DNA of 39,217 bases. Source: a virus. The position numbers and the translations under genes are program-made. The notes beneath the pieces are model-generated. The model was not told the DNA's origin and made no database searches. It saw nothing but the letters and a program-made list of their open reading frames with translations. Where the stretch lies: the IMG/VR virus record IMGVR_UViG_3300027900_000001, positions 1 to 39,217 of that record. One strand, written 5' to 3'. This document shows, piece by piece, positions 2,332-31,388 of the stretch. Positions within the stretch are counted from its first letter, which is position 1. Each line of letters begins with the position of its first letter.

Positions 2332-2381
2332 GTTTCGCTTTTCGGTCAAATAGGCGCAATTATGCGACTATAAAGTAGTTA
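2332..2381. repeat. 50-bp end repeat, copy 1 (edge of array A)
   Basis: By hand alignment this segment matches 12663-12712 at 42 of 50 positions without gaps. The two share GTTTCGCTTT, the identical block CAAATAGGCGCAATTATGCG and a final GTAGTTA. The block contains the short hairpin GCGCA-ATTA-TGCG. In both places the repeat sits just after a plus-strand structural operon and at the 3' end of a minus-strand array of small genes. It looks like the shared boundary of an inserted module, possibly a degenerate recombination site. Confidence 0.8.
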
Positions 2382-2390
2382 GCACCAATT

Positions 2391-2702
2391 TTACGCATGG
2401 CCGACAAGCTGAATGATATTATCAAAAAATCCTTCCGTTTGACCTGTTGGTATGTGAAATAAAACGTGCCTGTTTAATTCTACATTATAGCCAGTAAGCC
2501 GACACTCCTGCGAATAATCGTCAAACTCTAAAATGTATTCGGTGTAGTCATTACACCATATAACCGTCCTGCCATTATCAATGTATGTATCGCATCCACG
2601 TCTTTCAATCGCCCATTTATTGACGAAAGAAAAAACTGGTGCTAACAAATTATTGCCGACAATGGCGGCTAAACTGCTTGCTTGAGGCTTTGTGCTACTC
2701 AT
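2391..2702 (-). CDS. Array A small protein 1, unrecognised
   Basis: A 103-residue protein of unknown function. I choose the ATG at 2702 (MSSTKPQASS) rather than an upstream one, because the M-(S/N)-STK start and the sequence before it match the genes at 13155-13370 and 12725-13075. The body looks like a compact alpha/beta domain with alternating aromatic and acidic residues (YTEYILEFDDYSQEC). Codon use is more AT-rich than in the flanking head genes, consistent with separate origin. It is the last gene of array A, its stop lying ten bases from the 50-bp repeat. Confidence 0.55.
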   Translation of the reverse strand: MSSTKPQASSLAAIVGNNLLAPVFSFVNKWAIERRGCDTYIDNGRTVIWCNDYTEYILEFDDYSQECRLTGYNVELNRHVLFHIPTGQTEGFFDNIIQLVGHA

Positions 2703-2779
2703 ATACTTTTGTTTTAAAATTGAACATTTGTGCTTTTTAAACCGCCACTGCGGCAATAATCGGAACGTTATAGGTAATG
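2703..2779 (-). repeat. Cassette-like boundary and leader, array A
   Basis: Between two minus-strand genes. Read on the gene strand it holds: CCTATAACG just after the upstream stop codon; a hairpin CCGCAGTGGCGG; AGCACAAATGTT; a T/A tract; then AACAAAAG before the ATG. The last 45-50 bases resemble 13371-13420 closely. The TATAACG plus GC-rich hairpin resembles a shortened integron attC site, but the full paired R and L boxes are not visible. Confidence 0.5.
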
Positions 2780-3133
2780 CTAAAAGACACGACCTGTAAT
2801 AGCTGTTATTATTGTTTTAACATCTTCAATCTTTGTGTAACCATCGTAATCGTAATTTTTTAAAACAATCAAATCGGTTACTTTCTTGTTATCATCATTA
2901 TCAATTTGCCCTATAAAAAGCATTTCGTTTGGTGTTCCCAAGCACCCTATTGTTAGGTATCTGCCACGACCTAAATCGTAAAGCAAACTGTTCATTACTG
3001 TATAGTGTGGCATCTCTTTAAATCCGATTGTTTTAAAATCATCACGAGAAGCACTACCTATAACAGCACCTACCAAAAAGGCGGGGCTTTCGGCTTCGTC
3101 AGAAGCATTTGTGGTTAAATTATCTTTTGTCAT
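2780..3133 (-). CDS. Array A small protein 2, unrecognised
   Basis: A 117-residue protein of unknown function starting MTKDNLTTNAS. It has an alternating beta/turn pattern (FLVGAVIGS, YLTIGCLGTP, EMLFIGQIDND) and ends in a helix, ITAITGRVF. No membrane segment or catalytic motif is evident. The DNA is AT-rich compared with neighbouring phage genes. Its stop codon lies inside the conserved boundary TTAGCATTACCTATAACG (gene strand), the same arrangement as the gene ending at 3197. This supports the view that genes in the array move as units with a shared 3' end. Confidence 0.55.
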   Translation of the reverse strand: MTKDNLTTNASDEAESPAFLVGAVIGSASRDDFKTIGFKEMPHYTVMNSLLYDLGRGRYLTIGCLGTPNEMLFIGQIDNDDNKKVTDLIVLKNYDYDGYTKIEDVKTIITAITGRVF

Positions 3134-3196
3134 TTCTATTTAATTTATTGGTTAAAATCCCGCCCTTCTGGTAGCTGCATCACGTTATAGGTAAGG
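3134..3196 (-). repeat. Cassette-like boundary, array A
   Basis: On the gene strand this starts with CCTTACCTATAACG right after the upstream stop, nearly identical to the boundary at 2765-2779. It continues through a GC-rich stretch (GAAGGGCGGG) to a short AT-rich leader before the ATG at 3133. No strong hairpin is visible in this copy, so as a recombination site it would be degenerate. Confidence 0.45.
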
Positions 3197-3370
3197 CTAA
3201 GAAACATACACCCCTTTAAGGATGTGCTTACCACCTTTATCGTTTATACCTAAGAAAATATGACCATCAGTGTCGTTAAATCCCATTTCTTCAACACTTT
3301 CAAAATCTTCGGGCTGAAATATTGTGTTTTCCCAACCAAATCCACTAACCCAGTAGTGCGTAAATTCCAT
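3197..3370 (-). CDS. Array A small protein 3, unrecognised
   Basis: A 57-residue acidic and aromatic protein (MEFTHYWVSGFGWENTIF...LKGVYVS). The frame is open from an ATG at 3370 preceded by an AT-rich leader, to a TAG that again lies inside the conserved TTAGCCTTACCTATAACG boundary. Repeated Asp/Glu/Asn and Gly turns (GFNDTDGHIFLGINDKGG) suggest a small beta-rich domain. No function can be given. The shared boundary and the good reading frame make it likely to be a real gene despite its length. Confidence 0.5.
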   Translation of the reverse strand: MEFTHYWVSGFGWENTIFQPEDFESVEEMGFNDTDGHIFLGINDKGGKHILKGVYVS

Positions 3371-3406
3371 GTTTTTTATTTTATTTAAGTTTGTGATAAG
3401 CCCTAC

Positions 3407-3529
3407 CTATTGTGGTCTAAAGTCTATTCCGCAACAAAACTTACGCAATGTGCCTACAAGTTCTCCATTTCTGTAAACTTTTTTTTCGCCTTCCACTTCT
3501 TTAATTATTAATGACTTCCCCGCTTTCAT
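3407..3529 (-). CDS. Tiny basic protein coupled to the lipoprotein gene, unrecognised
   Basis: A 40-residue protein (MKAGKSLIIKEVEGEKKVYR...CCGIDFRPQ). Its ATG at 3529 overlaps the stop of the upstream lipoprotein gene in a TCAT (ATGA on the gene strand), so the two are probably translationally coupled. It has a Cys-Cys pair near the end and several lysines. After its stop comes ATAGGTAGGGCTTATC, faintly like the array A boundary, so this may mark the point where array A joins the phage operon. Confidence 0.45.
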   Translation of the reverse strand: MKAGKSLIIKEVEGEKKVYRNGELVGTLRKFCCGIDFRPQ

Positions 3530-13436: not shown

Positions 13437-13646
13437 TTACCCCTCCCCGACCTCAGTAAAAGTGCAATGCGCCTTCCGGATTGTCAGCTCTTTTTCGCTG
13501 ACATGAAATTCACCGATGACAAAGCCGCCGACCCAGATAGCATCCTGATAGGTAATCTGGATTTTCATCCGGTCTTTGTGCAGGTGGTCCACCTTGTAGG
13601 TCTTGCCGATTACTAAAGTTGGGGTTGGCATGGGAGTGCTAATCAT
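13437..13646 (-). CDS. Small phage protein after the helicase-methyltransferase, unrecognised
   Basis: A 69-residue protein, MISTPMPTPTLVIGKTYKVDHLHKDRMKIQ..., with beta strands and a YKV-type barrel pattern. Unlike the AT-rich genes around it, its codon use is like the core phage genes, so it probably belongs to the original operon rather than to array B. Its start overlaps the end of the helicase-methyltransferase gene by eight bases, and its stop is the first base group of the array B boundary. Confidence 0.5.
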   Translation of the reverse strand: MISTPMPTPTLVIGKTYKVDHLHKDRMKIQITYQDAIWVGGFVIGEFHVSEKELTIRKAHCTFTEVGEG

Positions 13647-15804
13647 TAAAAAGGCTCAGTTGATTTTTTTTAGAAACGACAGATTGAATATTTGCCTTCG
13701 CTAAATCATAATAGCTTTCTTTCAACTCAAAGCCAATTCCTTTCCTGCCCATTTTTACAGCTTGGTAAATTTCAGAACCTATACCCATAAAAGGAGTAAA
13801 AACCGTATCGCCTTTATTTGAATAAAGAAGAATAAGGCGTTCAATAGTTTCCAGTTGCAAAGGGCAAATGTGCTTTTCATCATTTTTATCCCTTGCATTT
13901 CTGAATCCCTGCAAAGTGTTTCCATAGTCAATATCCATCCAAACTGGAGAAGCGATTTTCTGCCATAAATCAACTGGCATATCAGTATTAGTTACCGGAT
14001 CGGTTCTTTCACCATCTTTCCGAAAAACCATAACATAATCAGGAATACCCACCCGGCTCATTGTGCTATCCTTTTTAATTTGCTTATGAAGCAATCCAAG
14101 GGCTTTTGTCCGTTGCATTTCAACTACCGGATCTTTCCAAATTGTAACCCTTGAATGATAAACAAACCCGGCATCCTGAAAAGCCGAAAGAATCATTCCT
14201 GAAAAATCTCTGAGCCCTATAAAACCTTCTTTGCCTTTTTGGATTGGTAAGTCCATGCAATGTACGGCTACATTGCGACCCGATTTAACGACCCTGTAAA
14301 GTTCTTTGATAAGAAACCCGAACTGAGTCAAGAACTCCGTGTAGTCCTTTGAATTACCCATATCTTCCAAATGATTTGAGTAAGTGTAAAGTTCTGCAAA
14401 TGGCGGGCTAAAAACTGAAAGACCGACCGATTCATCTGGTAATGATTGAATCAATTGTACTGAATCCCCTCGTTTGATTTCATACAAATCGGTTTTTTCG
14501 GGTGCCGTGTCGATCAATGATTCTTCCATGAATTGACCGTTTAAATTCTCATTAATTGCTTTGCTCATTTCTTTTTGCATTGTTAAAAATTGTTTTTGTT
14601 TTGTGTCGATAGCGGTTTTTACGTTTGCCATTGTATCAGTGGTAATCAGATAAATGTTTACCTCATTCTTTTGCCCGAATCGATAGGAACGTCTTATTGA
14701 TTGGTAAAGCCCCTCAAAACTGAAATCCAATGAAGCAAAAACTTGATTACGGCAGTTTTGGTAGTTCATTCCAAAAGATGCAATCTTAGTTTTGGTAATC
14801 AAAACCCGAAAGTCATTATTTGCAAAGCCCAAAAGCATCCTTTCTTTATACTCAGGCGAATCAGAGCCGGAAACTTCAACCGCATCAGGAATTAATTTTT
14901 TTAATAGCTCGCCTTCCTCATTTTGCTTAATCCAAATGATAAAATTTTCATCAGAATCATTTACAATTTTCGCAACCTCATCCAACCTTTCAACTTTGGT
15001 AATCCTTAATTCCTGATTAAAATTTGTTGCTGAAATAATGGCATCATTAAAGATCCTGCCATTATCTCTTTTGGGCGTTTTAATTTCATGCTCAATAAAA
15101 TTCAAATAAGGCAAATCATATCCTTCCATCTCAAATCCAATATCCTTAGGGTTGTTAAGCATTATTGCCCATGTTCCAACAAACCGATAAAACAGTTTAA
15201 CAGCATGGCCCTTTAGCCTCCATTTAGCCGTTTCCCCTCCATCATGAATAAAATACATTGCAAGCATTTCATTTCGACTCATTACGTCTAAAAACTCAGA
15301 ATGATTGCCTAGTTCCATTGGATCATTAGGGCTTGGAGTAGCGGTGCAAGCTAATTTGTAAGGGGTTTTTGAAAACAAATCAATTATTTGTTTTTTGGTA
15401 GCACCCTCAAAGTTTTTCAAAATTGAACTTTCATCCAGCACAATACCAGAATATTTGTTGCAGTCCAAATTATCTAATTGCTCATAATTCCAGACTTCAA
15501 TAAAATCTGACGGAATGTTAAAGTTTGCCATTTCCTTAATTGTTTGACCTTTTACAGCCAAAGGTGCCAGAATCAAAACAGGCTTATTTGTTTTTTTTGA
15601 AACCTGATTGGCCCATTCCAACTGCATGAATGTTTTCCCAAGTCCACAATCGGCAAAAATTGCATACTTACCAGCTTTTAAGGCTCGTTTGATTATGAAT
15701 TTTTGAAATGGGAATAATAGTGGATTCAGTTCTGATTCTGCAATTTCAAAACCAGAATGAATAATTGACTTTTGCTTTGCTTTTAAAAATTCTGAATATT
15801 CCAT
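13639..15804 (-). CDS. Helicase-DNA methyltransferase fusion
   Basis: A 721-residue protein starting at 15804 (MEYSEFLKAKQK). The first half is an SF2/SNF2-like translocase: ADCGLGKTFMQLEW (Walker A), VLDESSILKNF (DES in the DEAD-box position), ACTATPSPNDP (motif III) and RSYRFGQKNEV (motif VI). The second half is a beta-class DNA methyltransferase: SPPF (motif IV) near residue 455 and FTPFMGIGSE (motif I) near the C-terminus. The order of helicase then methyltransferase resembles a Type ISP restriction enzyme without its nuclease. It is likely to modify phage DNA. The gene is AT-rich compared with its neighbours and may have been acquired. Confidence 0.82.
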   Translation of the reverse strand: MEYSEFLKAKQKSIIHSGFEIAESELNPLLFPFQKFIIKRALKAGKYAIFADCGLGKTFMQLEWANQVSKKTNKPVLILAPLAVKGQTIKEMANFNIPSDFIEVWNYEQLDNLDCNKYSGIVLDESSILKNFEGATKKQIIDLFSKTPYKLACTATPSPNDPMELGNHSEFLDVMSRNEMLAMYFIHDGGETAKWRLKGHAVKLFYRFVGTWAIMLNNPKDIGFEMEGYDLPYLNFIEHEIKTPKRDNGRIFNDAIISATNFNQELRITKVERLDEVAKIVNDSDENFIIWIKQNEEGELLKKLIPDAVEVSGSDSPEYKERMLLGFANNDFRVLITKTKIASFGMNYQNCRNQVFASLDFSFEGLYQSIRRSYRFGQKNEVNIYLITTDTMANVKTAIDTKQKQFLTMQKEMSKAINENLNGQFMEESLIDTAPEKTDLYEIKRGDSVQLIQSLPDESVGLSVFSPPFAELYTYSNHLEDMGNSKDYTEFLTQFGFLIKELYRVVKSGRNVAVHCMDLPIQKGKEGFIGLRDFSGMILSAFQDAGFVYHSRVTIWKDPVVEMQRTKALGLLHKQIKKDSTMSRVGIPDYVMVFRKDGERTDPVTNTDMPVDLWQKIASPVWMDIDYGNTLQGFRNARDKNDEKHICPLQLETIERLILLYSNKGDTVFTPFMGIGSEIYQAVKMGRKGIGFELKESYYDLAKANIQSVVSKKNQLSLFND

Positions 15805-15866
15805 TTTTTTTTCTTTGGTTTTAAGACCGGCCCGGCACCTTTCAGCCACCGGGCCAGTTGCTTCAT
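15783..15866 (-). CDS. Short reading frame between Gp157-like and helicase genes (possible gene remnant)
   Basis: A 27-residue frame, MKQLARWLKGAGPVLKPKKKKW plus five residues. Its ATG overlaps the stop of the Gp157-like gene (ATGA), and its 3' end overlaps the start of the helicase-methyltransferase. The first 50 bases have core-phage codon use; the rest turns AT-rich. It may be a real tiny basic peptide or the stub of a gene replaced by the acquired fusion gene. Confidence 0.3.
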   Translation of the reverse strand: MKQLARWLKGAGPVLKPKKKKWNIQNF

Positions 15867-16370: not shown

Positions 16371-16973
16371 TTAAAAGGGAATTTCGTTATTATCTTCTGC
16401 TTCTGCCATGTAGGAGTGCTTTTGCGACTCAGTAAGGGTGGCGGCCTGCAATGCTGCAACTTGCTCAGCGTTCAACTGGAAGACCTGCTGTGCGGCTTCT
16501 ATGGCTCCTGAATCGCCGGACTTCACTCGCTCGAGTAAAGCCTGCCATTGCTTATCGCTTATCAGCTTTTTCGCCGGGGCTTTGGCTGGCTGCGGGGCTG
16601 CGCTCTGGCTATCGGGGTCGGCTTCGGTCTCGTCGATAAGGAAGAGGCCATTCAAAGCATACTTCCGGGCGTAACTGGATGCGCTTCCGGTGGCTTGCTC
16701 TGCACTCATGCCCTTGTGTTCGGCAAGCTCTGCAAAACCATTTACGCAGGTGGATTGCCCACCTATGGTAAGGCAGGCGGTGGCCTTCATGAAGAAGCGA
16801 TTGCCGATGCAGACTATTTCATCGGTCAGGATAAGGGTCGCATTATGTTTAACCAAAACTGGTTTGGCAACCTCAAGTATGTCCTCGCAGGACCGATACC
16901 GGAATTTTGCGCCGAAGTTGCTCTGATTTGCCTTCGGCACTTTGATTTCTTTTTGAATTGCTGTTAAACTCAT
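16371..16973 (-). CDS. ERF-family single-strand annealing protein
   Basis: A 200-residue protein. The ERF core is clear: FGAKFRYRSCEDILEVAKPVL at 20-40, LILTDEIVCIGNRFFMKATA, and ATGSASSYARKYALNGLFLID at 94-114. ERF proteins anneal complementary single strands in phage recombination and genome circularisation. The linker (PQPAKAPAKK) leads to a helical C-terminal part. The protein ends EAEDNNEIPF, an acidic tail ending in Pro-Phe like that of SSB proteins, which is unusual and may recruit replication partners. It lies next to an SSB-like gene. Confidence 0.88.
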   Translation of the reverse strand: MSLTAIQKEIKVPKANQSNFGAKFRYRSCEDILEVAKPVLVKHNATLILTDEIVCIGNRFFMKATACLTIGGQSTCVNGFAELAEHKGMSAEQATGSASSYARKYALNGLFLIDETEADPDSQSAAPQPAKAPAKKLISDKQWQALLERVKSGDSGAIEAAQQVFQLNAEQVAALQAATLTESQKHSYMAEAEDNNEIPF

Positions 16974-18292: not shown

Positions 18293-18834
18293 AAGCCACC
18301 GGAGTCTGGTCTCAAAAGGAGGCCGAAAGCAATCACCAATTCAGCCCGGCACTGGCTAAACTTCTGGCTGGCCGGGTTTTTCGCAATTCACATTCAGTCT
18401 TTGACATTGGATGCGGCCCGGGTAAATATGTGGATTACCTTGTATCACAGGGCATCCCTGCAATCGGGGTCGATGGCACTTCATTCGGGAAACAATTACA
18501 GCATGACCTGACCAAACCATTCCCGGATGACTTTATCACAGGCGGTCATGCCATTCTTTCCCTCGAAGTTGCTGAACATATCCCGGCTGAATTTGAGGAC
18601 AGCTTTCTGCATAACCTGATTAAGTTCAGCAGCGGCCTGATAGTTCTTTCATGGGCAATCCCGGAACAGGGCGGCTTTGGCCATGTAAACGAGAGGTCTA
18701 ATCCCTATGTTATCAGGAAAATGGCCGAATATGGTTATAACTTGCAGCCTTTCATGACCAACTTTTTGCGGCAATCCCTGAAAAGAGATGACTGCTGGTG
18801 GTTTCGTAATTCAATCTTTGTTTTCTCATGCTAA
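18289..18834 (+). CDS. SAM-dependent methyltransferase (class I)
   Basis: A 181-residue protein with the Rossmann fold signatures of class I methyltransferases: VFDIGCGPGKYVDYLVSQG (motif I), IGVDGTS (motif II acidic loop) and ILSLEVAEHIPAEF (motif IV region). The substrate is unknown. The pattern is like small-molecule, lipid or glycan methyltransferases rather than DNA adenine or cytosine enzymes (no DPPY/NPPF). It is tightly placed between the HTH protein and the primase-helicase. Confidence 0.78.
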   Translation: MKATGVWSQKEAESNHQFSPALAKLLAGRVFRNSHSVFDIGCGPGKYVDYLVSQGIPAIGVDGTSFGKQLQHDLTKPFPDDFITGGHAILSLEVAEHIPAEFEDSFLHNLIKFSSGLIVLSWAIPEQGGFGHVNERSNPYVIRKMAEYGYNLQPFMTNFLRQSLKRDDCWWFRNSIFVFSC

Positions 18835-21053
18835 TTTCATTATTCAAATCATCACAAAAAGGAATCAGGAATCCGATACCGGAAGAAGACCTGACATTCA
18901 CGGCCTACATCGAAGGCATCCGGGAAGGCCATTGGTACATTGAAGTTATGGCCTATCGGCAGGAAAAGTCCGAGGAAAAAAAGCGGCAACTTCCGGCGGT
19001 AACTCCTTCGGGGCAATTCAAAAAGCAGGGAAAAGAAGGCCTTGTCGAGCATTCAGGGGTTATCTGCATTGACATAGATGCAAAGGATAACGAGGGCGTT
19101 AATATGCGCAACTTGCTAACTGATGAATATCTGCTGGCAATGCACCTTTCTACCGGCGGCGAGGGTTATGCAGCCTACTTCAAAGTCGACCCAAATAAGC
19201 ATCTGGATGCTTTTCTAGCCCTTGAAAAAAGGCTGGCAGATAAGTACCACATCATTATTGACCCGGCCTGCAAAGATGTTTCCCGGCTTCGGTTCGTATC
19301 CTTTGATACCGAGGCCTATTTGGCAACAAAGCCAATTCCGGTTTTCAAATCGTACCTGCCGAAATCCAAGTCAGCTCCCATAATGAAGGTTTACCCGCAT
19401 GGTGAACACGACATCGAGTTTATCATGGCTCAGATTGAAAGTAAGCGCATTGACCTGACCGATTCCTATGCTGACTGGATTAAAATCGGCTTTGCCATTG
19501 CATCCAAATACAAGGAAGCCGGCTATGACCTGTTTCACCGGATAAGCCAGATTTCCAGTAAGTACAAGCCAGAGCAATGCGAAAAAAAGTATAAGCAGCT
19601 CTGCCAAAGTACCCATAACTCGGTAACCTTCGCCTCTTTCATGTATCTGGCAAAGAATGCAGGGGTGGATATTCAGACCAAGGAGACAAAGCATATTGTC
19701 GCTACGGCAAAGGCGCACAAGCTCAGGGTCGGCACCAACGGCGGACCGAAGGACATTAACTCGGCAACTGATTCAGCACTCCGCATTCTGAAAGAGATTG
19801 ATCAGGTCGAGGTGGACCAACTGGACCAGATAGTTGCGGACACCATGCAGCTTGATTTGAAAGACCTCAAAGCTGTTGCCGAAGACACTCCGGTAAAACA
19901 AATCAAGTCCTTTCTTCGGTCATATAACCTACGATTTAATACCGTTACCCGCAATGTAGAGTTGGACGGCAGCCCGATTACAGACCAAGACATTAACAAC
20001 ATCTACCTTGATTGCCTTGAGTCTTTCGGGAAAAAAGAGGTCAGCATGCAGCTTATTCAGGCGATTATTGACTCGCACTTTGTCATTCAGTACAATCCTT
20101 TTTTGGAGTTCTTTTCTGCCAACCAAAACCGCCATGCAGAAGGCCATCTGGAAGCACTGGCAAGGTGTGTAAGGTCTGGCAGCCAGACTCAGGAGTTTGT
20201 CGAGTTGATGGTCAGGAAATGGGTTTGCTCAGTGGTTGCATCCATGCACGGTGAATACTCAGTTATTATTCTAGTCCTTTGCGGAAATCAGGGTATTGGA
20301 AAAACAAACTTCTTCCGCAATCTGCTACCTGCATCCCTGCGGTCCTATTACGGCGAAAGTAAACTGGATGCCGGAAAAGACGACGAAATATTGATGTGCA
20401 AAAAGATTATCCTTTGCGATGACGAATTCGGCGGCAAATCCAAGCAGGAAGCAAAGAAACTCAAGGAGCTTTCTTCCAAGCAGACATTCAGCATCCGGAA
20501 GCCATACGGCAGGGTGCATGAAGACCTGAATAGGTATGCAGTTCTTTGCGGCACTTCCAACGACGAAGAGGTAATCAACGACCCGACCGGTAACCGCCGG
20601 ATTCTGCCCATATCAGTCTCAGACATTGACTGGGAGGCGTATAATGAGATTGATAAGGACTTGCTTTTTATTGAGGCTCTGCATGAATACCGGACAAAAG
20701 GTGCAGATTCATGGCAGCTAAGCCGGGCCGATATTGGCTATCTGGACCAGCTGACCTACAACAATGTGCAGCCGGCAGCGGAAAAAGAATTGTTCCTGAA
20801 ATTTTTCTATATTCCAGAAACTTTTCTGGAGTCATCAGGCGAATGGATGACCAATACCGAAATCAAAGATTACATCGAGACTCGGACCAAGCAGCACATC
20901 AGTTCGCACAAGTTGGGGGCGATTTTGAAGACGATGGGTGCCAAAAAGCACAATCGAAGGGAGAAAGGCTTCTGTGGTTGTTACTTTGTGGTTAGATATG
21001 ACTACGCCGAAAAACACCCCTATCAAGTTGATACTCAGATTGCTCCGTTCTAG
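18828..21053 (+). CDS. Primase-helicase with BT4734/VirE-like N-terminus (VapE/VirE type)
   Basis: A 741-residue replication protein. The N-terminal part (up to about residue 175) has the BT4734/VirE archaeo-eukaryotic primase-like pattern, with GVICIDIDAKDNEG carrying the Asp pair and MHLSTGGEGYAAYFKV. A PriCT-like helical segment follows (YADWIKIGFAIASKYKEAGYDLFHRIS). The C-terminal half is a VirE/VapE P-loop domain: VLCGNQGIGKTNF near residue 485, IILCDDEFGG near 530 and LCGTSNDEEVINDPTGNRR. It should prime and unwind at the origin. A candidate origin lies directly downstream. Confidence 0.85.
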   Translation: MLISLFKSSQKGIRNPIPEEDLTFTAYIEGIREGHWYIEVMAYRQEKSEEKKRQLPAVTPSGQFKKQGKEGLVEHSGVICIDIDAKDNEGVNMRNLLTDEYLLAMHLSTGGEGYAAYFKVDPNKHLDAFLALEKRLADKYHIIIDPACKDVSRLRFVSFDTEAYLATKPIPVFKSYLPKSKSAPIMKVYPHGEHDIEFIMAQIESKRIDLTDSYADWIKIGFAIASKYKEAGYDLFHRISQISSKYKPEQCEKKYKQLCQSTHNSVTFASFMYLAKNAGVDIQTKETKHIVATAKAHKLRVGTNGGPKDINSATDSALRILKEIDQVEVDQLDQIVADTMQLDLKDLKAVAEDTPVKQIKSFLRSYNLRFNTVTRNVELDGSPITDQDINNIYLDCLESFGKKEVSMQLIQAIIDSHFVIQYNPFLEFFSANQNRHAEGHLEALARCVRSGSQTQEFVELMVRKWVCSVVASMHGEYSVIILVLCGNQGIGKTNFFRNLLPASLRSYYGESKLDAGKDDEILMCKKIILCDDEFGGKSKQEAKKLKELSSKQTFSIRKPYGRVHEDLNRYAVLCGTSNDEEVINDPTGNRRILPISVSDIDWEAYNEIDKDLLFIEALHEYRTKGADSWQLSRADIGYLDQLTYNNVQPAAEKELFLKFFYIPETFLESSGEWMTNTEIKDYIETRTKQHISSHKLGAILKTMGAKKHNRREKGFCGCYFVVRYDYAEKHPYQVDTQIAPF

Positions 21054-25713: not shown

Positions 25714-26016
25714 ATGGCAGGAACAAGACCCGGACGGAACGGAGGCACATTAAAATCAGGAGGAGCAACTGGAGGAGGCCGTCCAAAAAAACTCCCGGAA
25801 CTCCGGGAACTATTAGCCAATGTTTTAGGCGATGAAAAGGACGGCAAGACGGCGGCAGAGGCAATCCTGATGGCCCTCAGAGCCAAGGCGGCAAAAGGCG
25901 ATGTTCGGGCCGCCGAACTACTTCTTGACCGGGCCTATGGCAAGCCTAAGCAAGATGTGGACCTTTCCGGCAGCATGGTAACGGTAATCAAACCAAAGCC
26001 GATTGCAGACTCTTGA
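25714..26016 (+). CDS. Small terminase subunit candidate
   Basis: A 100-residue protein. After a Gly-rich start (RPGRNGGTLKSGGATGGGRPKK) comes a helical pattern, LPELRELLANVLG, then KTAAEAILMALRAKAAKGDVRAAELLLDRAYGKP. This pattern occurs in short phage proteins placed directly before large terminases and is often called a small terminase subunit. DNA recognition would be through the helical part. It overlaps the large subunit by 14 bases. Confidence 0.6.
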   Translation: MAGTRPGRNGGTLKSGGATGGGRPKKLPELRELLANVLGDEKDGKTAAEAILMALRAKAAKGDVRAAELLLDRAYGKPKQDVDLSGSMVTVIKPKPIADS

Positions 26017-27400
26017 CCTCTCAGACCCGGCACTGTGGCAACAGAAATACTTGCCCTCAGTAATTAATCCGAAGACCTTCAATATCCTTTGGGGCGGAAG
26101 CGGCTCGGGTAAAAGCCAGTCCATGATTCAGCTCTTTTTGGCTGAAATCTGCAATCATGGCGAAAACCAATATCAGACTTTCTTTGTAATCCGCAAGGTT
26201 GCCGCAACGCTGCGCAATTCAGTCTTCGCCGATTTCAAAAACAAAATAAACGAGTGGGGCATAAACCACTTTCTGCAGGTCAAGCCCGGTTACATGGAGA
26301 TTCATTCAGGTACCAACAAAATAGTTTTCCTCGGCTGCGATGACCCGGAAAAATTGAAATCGCTAAGTCAGGCAAAGTATATCTGGATTGAAGAAGCGAC
26401 CGAACTTTTTCTGGATGACTTCACTCAGATAACCCTTCGATTGCGGGGCAAGTCCAATCACCAAAAGCGGTTCTTCCTGACTTTTAACCCGGTCAGCGAT
26501 ACACACTGGATAAAGAAGCGGTTTTTCGATGAGGTGCCGGAAGCAGAGCAGGACCAAATACTGCGGCTGCATGGTACCTACCGGGATGCCTTGAGCTTTC
26601 TGGATGCCAACTACATAACTCGGATGGAAGCCCTTCGGGAAGTGAATGAGACAATGTACGAAATCTATGCACTCGGCCACTGGGGTATCTGGGATAAGGA
26701 AAAGCTATTTGCCAAAGAATTTGATGAGACGGTTCATGTCTTCCGGGGTGCAATCAAAGCCAAACCCGGGATGCCGCTGTATCTGTCCTTCGATTTCAAC
26801 TCTGCCAATGGTGGAAATACCTGCCTTGTCGCACAGCACACGATTAACGCACCAAAGGACCGATACTATTGCAATGTTCATGTGCTGAAGGTTTACCGGA
26901 TGCACGACCTTGAGGCAATGTGCCAAACCATATTGGCTGAATATCCGGGCTTTGAATACCACATAAACGGCGACCGAAGCGGCAAGAATGCGAATGAGGC
27001 GACAAGTGATAACAAGTCCAATTATCAACTGATTGCCAATTACCTGCACCTCGACCCGACCTACCAGATGCATATACCCAATGCCAACCCACGCTACATA
27101 TCAAGTCGTTTACATACCAATCTGGTACTTAAGCACGGCAAAGTTCTACTCTCCTTACACGACCACAACGAGGGCTTATTTGCCGCTACTTTTATGCCTG
27201 AATTGATAGCCGACTTAAAAGCGGCCCGGATAAACAATGATGGAAGTCTGGATGCTTGGAAAAATGAAAATCCACAAATCGGCCACTGTCTGGATGCCTT
27301 GCGGTATTACCTGACAACCAACTTTTACCAGATAGTTGCTGAATATGGGCTGCAAGAATTTGGAGACAAAATTGCGAAAAGTAGTAACTTTGCCCCATGA
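26003..27400 (+). CDS. terL: Large terminase subunit
   Basis: A 465-residue protein, reading from a TTG at 26003; no ATG precedes the Walker A motif, so a non-ATG start is likely. ATPase motifs: GGSGSGKS (31-38) and YIWIEEATE (about 126-134, catalytic Glu). Nuclease motifs: D264 in LSFDFNSANGG, D324 in INGDRSGK and D431 in GHCLDALRYY. The protein cuts and packages phage DNA into the head. It follows the small subunit with an overlap and is followed by a structural gene that overlaps it by four bases. Confidence 0.93.
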   Translation: MQTLDLSDPALWQQKYLPSVINPKTFNILWGGSGSGKSQSMIQLFLAEICNHGENQYQTFFVIRKVAATLRNSVFADFKNKINEWGINHFLQVKPGYMEIHSGTNKIVFLGCDDPEKLKSLSQAKYIWIEEATELFLDDFTQITLRLRGKSNHQKRFFLTFNPVSDTHWIKKRFFDEVPEAEQDQILRLHGTYRDALSFLDANYITRMEALREVNETMYEIYALGHWGIWDKEKLFAKEFDETVHVFRGAIKAKPGMPLYLSFDFNSANGGNTCLVAQHTINAPKDRYYCNVHVLKVYRMHDLEAMCQTILAEYPGFEYHINGDRSGKNANEATSDNKSNYQLIANYLHLDPTYQMHIPNANPRYISSRLHTNLVLKHGKVLLSLHDHNEGLFAATFMPELIADLKAARINNDGSLDAWKNENPQIGHCLDALRYYLTTNFYQIVAEYGLQEFGDKIAKSSNFAP

Positions 27401-28949: not shown

Positions 28950-31388
28950 ATGGCAACGATTAGCACAAACGACATTGTAGTCAATTATAAGCTCGGTGAT
29001 GTCTCCGGGCTGGCTCAACTGGAAAGCAAGTTATCCGGGCTGACCAAAGATGAGCAGGCTGCACTTGCTGAGGCAAAAAGGCTGACGGCTCAATTCCAAA
29101 AGATGGGCAACGAAGGCAAGGCCGGGGCTGAAAAGGTCAGTCAGGGGGTCAATTCTGCAAGGTCCAGTATGGGAAACCTTGGCAGCACCATTAACAGCAT
29201 TGGCAGCTCTTTAGGTATAGCTTTCAGCGGTGCCGCAATAGTCGCCTTTGGAAAAGAGGTAATAAACATTACGGCCAAATTCGAGCAGCTTCAAAAGGCT
29301 ATCACCTTTTCATCCGGCTCAATTGAGGAAGGTCAAAAATCAATGGCTTTCATCCGGCGCACTGCATCCAGCCTTGGATTGGACTTGCTCGGGGTTGCTG
29401 AAGGTTACAAGACTTTTGCAGCCAGTTCCAAAATGGCCGGCCAAAGTACGGATGAAACGAATCGGCAATTTCTGGCAGTTACCAAAGCGGTTGCAGCAAT
29501 GGGCCTCAGTACGGACGATGCCAAAGGCGTATTTCTTGCCCTTGGCCAAATTATGAGCAAAGGCACTGTGCAAGCAGAAGAATTACGGGGGCAAATCGGC
29601 GAAAGATTGCCGGGTGCCTTTAATCTTGCGGCCAAATCAATGGGCGTAACCACGGCAGAGCTGAATAAGATGCTGCAACAAGGTCGGGTTATCAGTGGTG
29701 ATTTTCTGCCAAAGTTTGCAACCGAATTAGAAAAAACCTTTGGTGAAGAGGCCGCAAAGAATATCAATACCCTGACAGCCAGCCAAAACAAATTTGGGGC
29801 TGCATTGGATTCACTTATGGTTGCCCTCGGTACTACCTATCAGGGCCGGATTAAGAGCTTCTTCGATACTTGGGCAAATAACTTTGACCGGGTGAAAGGC
29901 CTGATTGACCCGGGTACGGCAATCTTTGACAAAGGAATGCAGCAATCCATGAAGCTATCTCAGGAGGCTTTGAAAATTGCTATCAACAACAAGAATGCAG
30001 AAATCAGGCAGCTGAAAGAGCAATACCGACTGAGGGCCGAAATAGTCGCCGCTGATGGAGAGATGAGCGACTTGGAAAAAGTTATGGTGGAACAGTTGGC
30101 CGATAAGATTACCATGCAGCAAAAGTTTCGGGATGGTATGTTTGCCAACCTGAAGACCACCGAAGACACGGCAAAGGCTACCGAGCAGACAACTGAATTG
30201 ACGGCGGAGCAGATTAAGCTACTCAAAGCCGAATTCAACGAGCGCAAAAAGCTATTGGAAATTCAGCGAGAATATGAATTACTGCTTAAATCGATTGAAG
30301 GCAATGTACCAGAGCCACAAGCCAAACTGGGTGCCGAAGTAAACTACCTAAAAAGTCTGGAATTGTTACAAAGGGAGTATGCGGCCAAAGGAGTTGATAT
30401 AACGAAGACTGAAATTGAAATCACCAAACTGAATCGGCAAAAGGCAAATGAGGAACTGATTTCGGAGGAAAACCAATTTCAGATGCAAATGAAAGATGCC
30501 AGTAAGGGTTATTTTGCTGAACTTGACAAGCAGCGCAAAGAAGATGATGAAAAGCGGCGTAAAAGTCAGGAGGACCGCATAAAGGCCGCAAAAGAGGCCG
30601 CAGATGCTGAACTTGCAGCTGAAAAGAAGTTGCAGGAAGAAAAGCAAAAAGCCCGGGAAGAGGCTGAAAGGCAGGCAATTGATTTGGCCCAAATGACTGT
30701 AAACTCAATATTCAGTCTGCAATCTCAGTACGCTGCCAATGACCTTGCCAGAAAGCAGCGGCAATTCGATGAAGAAATCAGGCTGGCAGACGGCAATGTG
30801 CAGAAAATCACCGAGATTGAGGAAAAGAGGCGGGCAGCGGAAAAGGAAGCCCGGCTAAAGCAATTCAGAGCTGACCAAATGCAGGCAATCGCCAATGCGA
30901 TATTCACGGCGGCTCCATACATTATTAAGTACACGGCGGGCCTGCCAGTTACGGCGGCAAACCTTTCGCTGACCTTGGGCGCACTTGCGGCGCAAACAGG
31001 CTTTATCCTTGCCCAACCAGTTCCTGAATTTGCAAAAGGGGTTGAAAACTTTGAAGGCGGTCCTGCAATCGTAGGGGAAAAAGGCCGGGAGTTGGTAAGG
31101 ACCGATTCAGGCAGTTACCTGACACCTGACCGGGCAACGCTGACCTATCTGCCGAGGGGTGCAGATGTTATCACGGCACCAAAGACCCGGGAATTGCTTG
31201 CAGGCAATTCGACCCTTACCAGAGTTCGCAATGAATGGTCGGCAATCGATACGGCACCGATTGCAAAGGCAATTATGGGAATGCCAGTTCAGTCTCTGGA
31301 AATATCCGAAAGAGGGCTGGAGCGATATGTTACGAAAGGGAATAGGACAACGAAAATCCTGAATAAAAAAAGAGGGGCTAATTTATGA
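28950..31388 (+). CDS. Tape measure protein
   Basis: An 812-residue protein, largely helical, with hydrophobic stretches (INSIGSSLGIAFSGAAIVAFG near residue 80 and TAAPYIIKYTAGLPVTAANL plus LGALAAQTGFILAQP near 650-690) and long charged coiled coils (AADAELAAEKKLQEEKQKAREEAERQ region). The segment GQSTDETNRQFLAVTKAVAAMG and GKGTVQAEELRGQIGERLPGAFNLAAKSMGV-type pattern are typical of tape measure proteins of siphophages. The length sets tail length; 812 residues predicts a tail of roughly 120 nm at 1.5 Å per residue. It ends GNRTTKILNKKRGANL. Confidence 0.88.
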   Translation: MATISTNDIVVNYKLGDVSGLAQLESKLSGLTKDEQAALAEAKRLTAQFQKMGNEGKAGAEKVSQGVNSARSSMGNLGSTINSIGSSLGIAFSGAAIVAFGKEVINITAKFEQLQKAITFSSGSIEEGQKSMAFIRRTASSLGLDLLGVAEGYKTFAASSKMAGQSTDETNRQFLAVTKAVAAMGLSTDDAKGVFLALGQIMSKGTVQAEELRGQIGERLPGAFNLAAKSMGVTTAELNKMLQQGRVISGDFLPKFATELEKTFGEEAAKNINTLTASQNKFGAALDSLMVALGTTYQGRIKSFFDTWANNFDRVKGLIDPGTAIFDKGMQQSMKLSQEALKIAINNKNAEIRQLKEQYRLRAEIVAADGEMSDLEKVMVEQLADKITMQQKFRDGMFANLKTTEDTAKATEQTTELTAEQIKLLKAEFNERKKLLEIQREYELLLKSIEGNVPEPQAKLGAEVNYLKSLELLQREYAAKGVDITKTEIEITKLNRQKANEELISEENQFQMQMKDASKGYFAELDKQRKEDDEKRRKSQEDRIKAAKEAADAELAAEKKLQEEKQKAREEAERQAIDLAQMTVNSIFSLQSQYAANDLARKQRQFDEEIRLADGNVQKITEIEEKRRAAEKEARLKQFRADQMQAIANAIFTAAPYIIKYTAGLPVTAANLSLTLGALAAQTGFILAQPVPEFAKGVENFEGGPAIVGEKGRELVRTDSGSYLTPDRATLTYLPRGADVITAPKTRELLAGNSTLTRVRNEWSAIDTAPIAKAIMGMPVQSLEISERGLERYVTKGNRTTKILNKKRGANL

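Follow-up and report, generated by a model that had tools for sequence, protein, structure and literature searches.

The two groups of small genes found in this 39,217-base IMG/VR phage record (the window, by which we mean the whole stretch of DNA analysed) are very probably integron-type gene-cassette arrays that reside within a phage genome. Terminase, tail tape measure and other phage genes are present in the window (Table 1), and Bacteroidota-flavoured domains, e.g. BT4734-like_N, are present among its proteins. The cassette genes of both arrays, A and B, are all on the minus strand, codirectional with the upstream phage genes that read into the arrays. As in the clusters known as CALINs, the window has at least two attC sites in a phage genome, and no integrase homologue was detected among its ORFs or among those of L007, a phage contig with a related array.

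The three minus-strand ORFs from which the original prediction started (the genes of A1, A2 and A3) are present, as are the boundary TTAGC(A/C)TTACCTATAACG after the first two stop codons, a repeat that is 88% identical over 25 nt, and the leader before position 2702, which is common to array B (2653-2756 vs. 13321-13424, 74%, E 2.6e-12). The prediction regarded these units as captured or decayed cassettes with incomplete R and L boxes. The first part of this, capture of integron-type cassettes, agrees with our results, but four of the five cassettes are not decayed, both R boxes and both arms being found in each of them. The arrays are not degenerate, and only A1 has lost its attC.

Hairpins resembling attC sites

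The hairpins were identified by a purpose-written structural finder, which searched the whole window for AAC and GTT boxes 45-170 nt apart with complementary arms and a score of at least 34. In the entire 39 kb it returned four attC-like hairpins, all inside arrays A and B (13438-13313, 13143-13019, 3186-3064 and 2769-2646, read on the minus strand), and none at A1. By comparison, 300 dinucleotide shuffles gave a mean of 0.043 sites per strand and a maximum of two. It was the comparison of the two arrays that first pointed to the leader lying within a hairpin. Each hairpin is about 125 nt long, with one arm located after a stop codon (the boundary) and the other within the next ORF. Folding of the hairpins as single-stranded DNA gave z-scores of -2.2 to -4.4, compensatory changes were seen at 9 of 13 consensus stem pairs (15 sites from the window and other contigs), and the mean pairing score was 36.7 for arms of the same hairpin vs. 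16.9 for swapped arms. The terminal inverted repeats of three gene bodies are identical at 13-15 of 18 positions, for which the background frequencies are 0.0002-0.002, and those of a fourth body match at 12 of 13. The two ends of each body between hairpins are boxes complementary to one another at 11-13 of 13 bases, and in sequence they have the appearance of R' and R'' of one cassette. The sites are palindromic, with AAC/GTT boxes, an asymmetric spacer and a stem, as is characteristic of attC. The GTT is constant, but GTTATAA, GTTATAG, GTTATAT and GTTAGCA deviate from the RRRY of the GTTRRRY consensus, and nothing relevant in Rfam matched the arrays. The gap in the arms is larger on the AACG side in all 145 distinct host sites from Bacteroidota (see below) and in all 18 phage-type sites. 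This asymmetry provides a polarity that is independent of the genes, according to which the phage-type genes are antisense.

Table 1. Annotated and predicted features of the phage window (positions in the window)
Feature	Positions	Strand	Remarks
Array A	2332-3521
attI-like site A, ..CAAATAGGCGCAATTATGCGACTATAAAGTAG|TT	2332-2380	+	predicted crossover between 2378 and 2379
Cassette A3	2379-2767	+	canonical polarity (TT..body..attC..CG), gene antisense; terminal repeats 12/13, body 266 nt; end box 2378-2380
Gene of A3	2391-2702	-	103 aa; ATG at 2702 within own attC loop, 56 nt before GTT
attC-like hairpin of A3	2644-2769	.	score 38, de novo; DNA fold z = -4.1
Cassette A2	2768-3184	+	terminal repeats 12/13
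Gene of A2	2780-3133	-	117 aa; start codon in own attC, 69 nt before GTT
attC-like hairpin of A2, GTGATGCAGCT type	3062-3186	.	score 36; fold z = -4.4
Cassette A1	3185-3410	+	attC lost (decayed); inverted repeat 3187-3198 / 3399-3410
Gene of A1	3197-3370	-
Remainder of variable region A	3411-3521	.	about 110 nt; homology of relatives restarts at 3522
Terminator-like inverted repeat, AAAAGGGCTGCA/TGCAGCCCTTTT and T run	12628-12665		strong; between rightward gene and attI-like site B
Array B	12663-13438
attI-like site B, ..GCGCAATTATGCGCATACAGCGTAG|TT	12663-12711	+	predicted crossover between 12709 and 12710
Cassette B2	12710-13141	+	terminal repeats 11/13
Gene of B2	12725-13075	-	116 aa; start codon within own attC
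attC-like hairpin of B2	13017-13143	.	score 35; fold z = -2.5
Cassette B1	13142-13436	+	terminal repeats 12/13
Gene of B1	13155-13370	-	71 aa; start codon within own attC
attC-like hairpin of B1	13311-13438	.	score 40
Phage gene, TAA stop overlapping array B junction	13437-13646	-	homology of L205 restarts at 13435
Helicase (SNF2/ResIII-like) and N6/N4 DNA methylase protein	13639-15849		736 aa; just upstream of array B, same strand
Erf-like annealing protein (ssDNA-annealing)	16371-16973
Primase/helicase	18828-21053
Terminase large subunit	26003-27400
Tail tape measure protein	28950-31388

Both arrays start with a common 50-nt element (2332-2381 and 12663-12712, 84% identity). This docking element is a candidate attI, as judged from the breakpoints in related phages and from its weak likeness to one integrase-side sequence, about 13-14 of 20 bases being alike, by eye, in the sequence upstream of the G002 recombinase. 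The small cassette proteins that were compared with Pfam and NCBIfam could not be given a convincing function, and that of A3 was without a match in either database.

Hairpins related to those of the window were also present elsewhere. A near-identical copy of the A3 hairpin occurs in the Bacteroidota genome G393, and the type of the A2 hairpin in the same genome and in phages L007 and L047. The B1 hairpin was found together with other genes in the phage contigs L007, L033 and L034 and in the MAG contigs L013 and L014 (shortened in L014). These MAG contigs look viral: a phage tail/endolysin-type protein is encoded in L098, the complete contig of L013, and DUF3164 is present in L014. Retrieval of this sample was biased in part, as L007, L013 and L014 were found via the leader with its ATG, and L033, L034, L047 and L205-L218 otherwise. 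Of the matches to the leader-plus-ATG pattern, one of five in IMG/VR (L007) and two of six genome contigs (L013, L014) represented true arrays, and the GTGATGCAGCT pattern was real only in L007 and L047. Another pattern, GGCGATA..GCACAAATGTT, was rejected, as what it matched in ten other viral contigs is conserved and apparently codes for protein, and nucleotide searches of INPHARED yielded no convincing relative of the arrays. The array of L007 has six hairpins, and several DNA-methyltransferase-like genes and a radical-SAM-like gene were recognised in it by eye from sequence motifs.

Replacement of cassettes among related phages

Searches of IMG/VR with the two genes that adjoin the arrays identified 14 relatives (L205-L218), whose flanks beside array A are mostly 88-95% identical. 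Between these same flanks the cassettes are mostly different, and many of them have intact sites. This is the opposite of what the original prediction had set against the cassette idea, viz. homologous small genes in the same place with unrelated flanks. On the left side of array A, the breakpoints are at 2381-2383 in L209 and L210 and at 2359 in L212, and in the others they are at the stop of the adjacent gene (2328-2332) and not at the attI-like site. On its right side, all eight contigs long enough to be compared (L209, L210, L212-L217) are homologous again from 3522 onwards. One block in this array is common to L213, L214 and L217, and a 200-nt stretch is common to L210 and L215. The junctions are AAGTAG|TTATG, GCGTAG|TTAGC, AAGTAG|TTAGT, GAAGTAG|TTATG and GCTGAG|TTAGC. 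In array B, homology with L205 extends to 12697 and is found again from 13435; at the unchanged GGGGTAA|CG junction L205 has another first hairpin, and it has none at the attI end. As homology breaks at or near the attI-like site (..GTAG|TT) and restarts at 3522 or at the CG|TT junction at 13436, the turnover of cassettes takes place at these positions. A copy of the attI-like element was also noted further inside, behind an extra segment, in three of the relatives (L213:4578-4630, L214:2572-2624, L217:4238-4292), and the docking site itself may be duplicated or displaced in them.

These observations may be compared with what is expected of an ordinary variable locus, where homologous or illegitimate recombination between repeats swaps unrelated accessory genes and the hairpins are terminators or regulatory elements. 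The window encodes an Erf-like ssDNA-annealing protein, and some hairpins and the attI-like element are common to both arrays, which makes homologous exchange possible. Further, L034 and L098 have in common a 144-aa cassette gene (MTTYVLTVSEFFPK..; L034:1337-1771 and L098:198-632), which is 96% identical over 495 nt with flanks that differ on both sides, and hence a body is not always passed on with its hairpin. (This common cassette was also tried as a test of the cassette boundary, which it did not decide.) However, the location of the breakpoints at G|TT and CG|TT, the pairing of the terminal repeats within each body together with the co-variation of the arms, and a polarity that is conserved with chromosomal superintegron-like sites all argue against such a locus, and we consider this explanation unlikely.

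Gene direction and start codons inside the attC-like sites

Relative to cassette polarity, the genes are antisense in all 22 phage-type cassettes, several of which come from related phages, in comparison to 13 of 180 in the host arrays, where 167 of the 180 bodies conform to the layout in which the gene reads towards attC. A total of 24 phage-type units were scored, two of which were the mirror image of palindromic L007 sites and were removed; the Fisher value for the contrast in direction (2e-18) was calculated on 22:2, before these two duplicates were dropped. The longer ORF is on the classical strand in 162 of the 180 host bodies by one measure and in 167 by another. When the longest ORF of each strand is compared, that of the minus strand is the longer one in every variable region examined, the margin being narrow in array B of the window (116 vs. 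88 codons).

In 15 of the 22 phage-type genes an ATG is present inside the attC, 29-99 nt before the GTT, and the first codons are also within the attC; the other arrangement, an own start codon after the R box, was seen in 7 of the 22. The ORFs of these 15 genes cross the R box in frame, and in most of them the stop lies 1 or 13 nt short of the next box. Because all three codon phases are represented among the 15 in-frame crossings, start and body are probably inherited together. Translation of these genes would start at the ATG within their own attC. Cassette polarity assigns each attC to the gene that has its start codon in the loop of that site, and the attC does not simply follow the stop of its gene as had been predicted; the phage genes are thus inverted with respect to classical cassettes. 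No description of antisense cassette genes that start in their own attC was found by the searches made in an open-access library.

The position of a hairpin after each stop codon along the gene direction, as in classical cassettes, could also be accounted for by ordinary forward cassettes with the cut at the other R box. In this case the hairpin would be that of the upstream gene, and the in-frame fusion of downstream genes to it would be due to chance or selection. This is very unlikely in view of the arm polarity, which agrees with that of host sites cut at CG|TT, of the exchanged first hairpin in L205 with no hairpin at its attI end, and of the fifteen in-frame crossings in all three phases. 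Reversed crossover chemistry of this kind was likewise rejected as the cause of the start codons in attC, as the direction of the host-array genes and the arm asymmetry point to canonical chemistry with inverted genes. Lastly, that the cassettes decayed after being captured once and are now fixed is extremely improbable. A1 without its attC and the remnant of about 110 nt following it fit such a history, but the relatives with 88-95% identical flanks mostly hold other cassettes, many with intact sites.

Bacteroidota arrays and a model for cassette capture

Related hairpins were detected in the whole genomes G393, G026 and G189, and the array query matched in 15 of 17 genomes of the genus of G189. 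The arrays of the five genomes examined in detail (G189, G476, G466, G463 and G468; loci L099, L122-L125 and L153-L170) are about 17-84 kb long, and 98 candidate sites are present in G476. Of 293 intervals in the Bacteroidota arrays, 175 have boxes that agree at 13 or 14 of 15 positions, the distribution being sharply bimodal. For host bodies that are 98.4-100% identical, the hairpins on one side are 0.99-1.00 alike (0.81-0.82 in two pairs), and most such pairs have unrelated hairpins on the opposite side (commonly 0.39-0.77, background median 0.54), the exceptions being mostly runs of one repeated cassette. As identical bodies keep the hairpin on one side, the mobile unit is the body plus one hairpin, bounded at CG|TT as canonical integron cassettes are, and going by their sequences the host cassettes are ordinary integron cassettes in layout. 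In connection with C1 and C2 of G393, a sequence of about 55 nt that precedes the hairpin in C4 was seen to recur at 13 other places of the genome.

A tyrosine recombinase of 408-446 aa is located 0.6-1.6 kb from the same array end in G476, G466, G468 and G189, and in G026 a similar gene is found about 240 nt past the end of the last cassette. In alignments, the recombinase of the G189 genus has a C-terminal SPLD motif as in IntI and is without the IntI insert, and its TIGR02249 score is about 186-211 bits vs. a cut-off of 265. Among seven genomes of this genus, none had a gene scoring above the IntI cut-off. Canonical IntI proteins exceeding the TIGR02249 cut-off were present in 84 of the 297 Bacteroidota genomes sampled, which is far above what literature surveys of complete genomes suggest; for Bacteroidetes, only In0 elements were reported earlier and then one complete integron, in Salinibacter ruber (IntegronFinder 2.0; PMC9024848). 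The IntI-linked attC sites that were sampled differ from the phage type.

At the level of sequence, an attC architecture with conserved polarity, cassette boundaries, replacement between close relatives and the direction of the genes are all apparent. In the model that we propose, where the action of a recombinase in trans, its identity and the mode of gene expression are presumptive, the phage would have an attI-like docking site at the 3' end of each of two leftward gene clusters, with a short cassette array after each site. A tyrosine recombinase, presumably from the integron of a Bacteroidota host, would act in trans on a folded attC and link its CG|TT end with the G|TT in the attI-like site, leading to both gain and loss of cassettes. 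The cassette genes would be reached by read-through transcription from the upstream phage genes, and translation would begin at the ATG in the attC of the cassette itself, so that with each integration a phage operon would be extended at its end by one gene that is ready for translation. Accessory genes are a plausible payload (cf. the DNA-methyltransferase-like genes in the L007 arrays). A broader view, which we hold tentatively as a possibility, is that Bacteroidota have a separate integron-like system, with a recombinase that is without the IntI-specific domain, and that phages have their own docking sites and an "append" version of it, in which antisense cassettes with attC-borne starts are added to operon ends.

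CALINs are known in phages, and supplying IntI1 leads to recombination of such phage attC sites with attI1 (Qi et al., 2023, PMC9892861). The phage genomes of that report resemble the present one in having attC clusters but no integrase. Phage-borne attI-like docking with population-level turnover, uniformly antisense genes and attC start codons are not described in the part of it considered here. Sedentary chromosomal integrons (superintegrons) resemble the phage arrays in their stem with R and L boxes and the crossover at G|TT, and they resemble the related host arrays in having tens to about 100 sites with a recombinase gene at the array end. The phage arrays differ from them in being short, without an integrase and with antisense genes, and the Bacteroidota recombinase adjoining the related arrays differs in being without the IntI-specific domain, which has been treated as defining (PMC9668308). 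The site attI1 is known to help translation of the cassette gene (ORF-11 / ORF-18, reviewed in PMC8876359). Here too a recombination site appears to supply translation initiation, but in that case attI does so by coupling, whereas in the phage the start codon and the codons following it would come from the cassette's own attC, in the reverse direction. Antisense promoters, and hence antisense transcription within cassettes, are also known (PMC11014356); those cassettes are gene-less, whereas in the phage antisense genes are the rule.

If the proposed interpretation is correct, phages use integron recombination for gene swapping, with a different gene at the same place in nearly every relative, and a foreign gene would be expressible on landing due to a recombination site that doubles as a translation start. 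It would also tie phages to very large, poorly described cassette arrays of the Bacteroidota, a phylum almost without complete integrons in IntegronFinder 2.0 (PMC9024848), and the need for the domain thought to define integron integrases would become testable.
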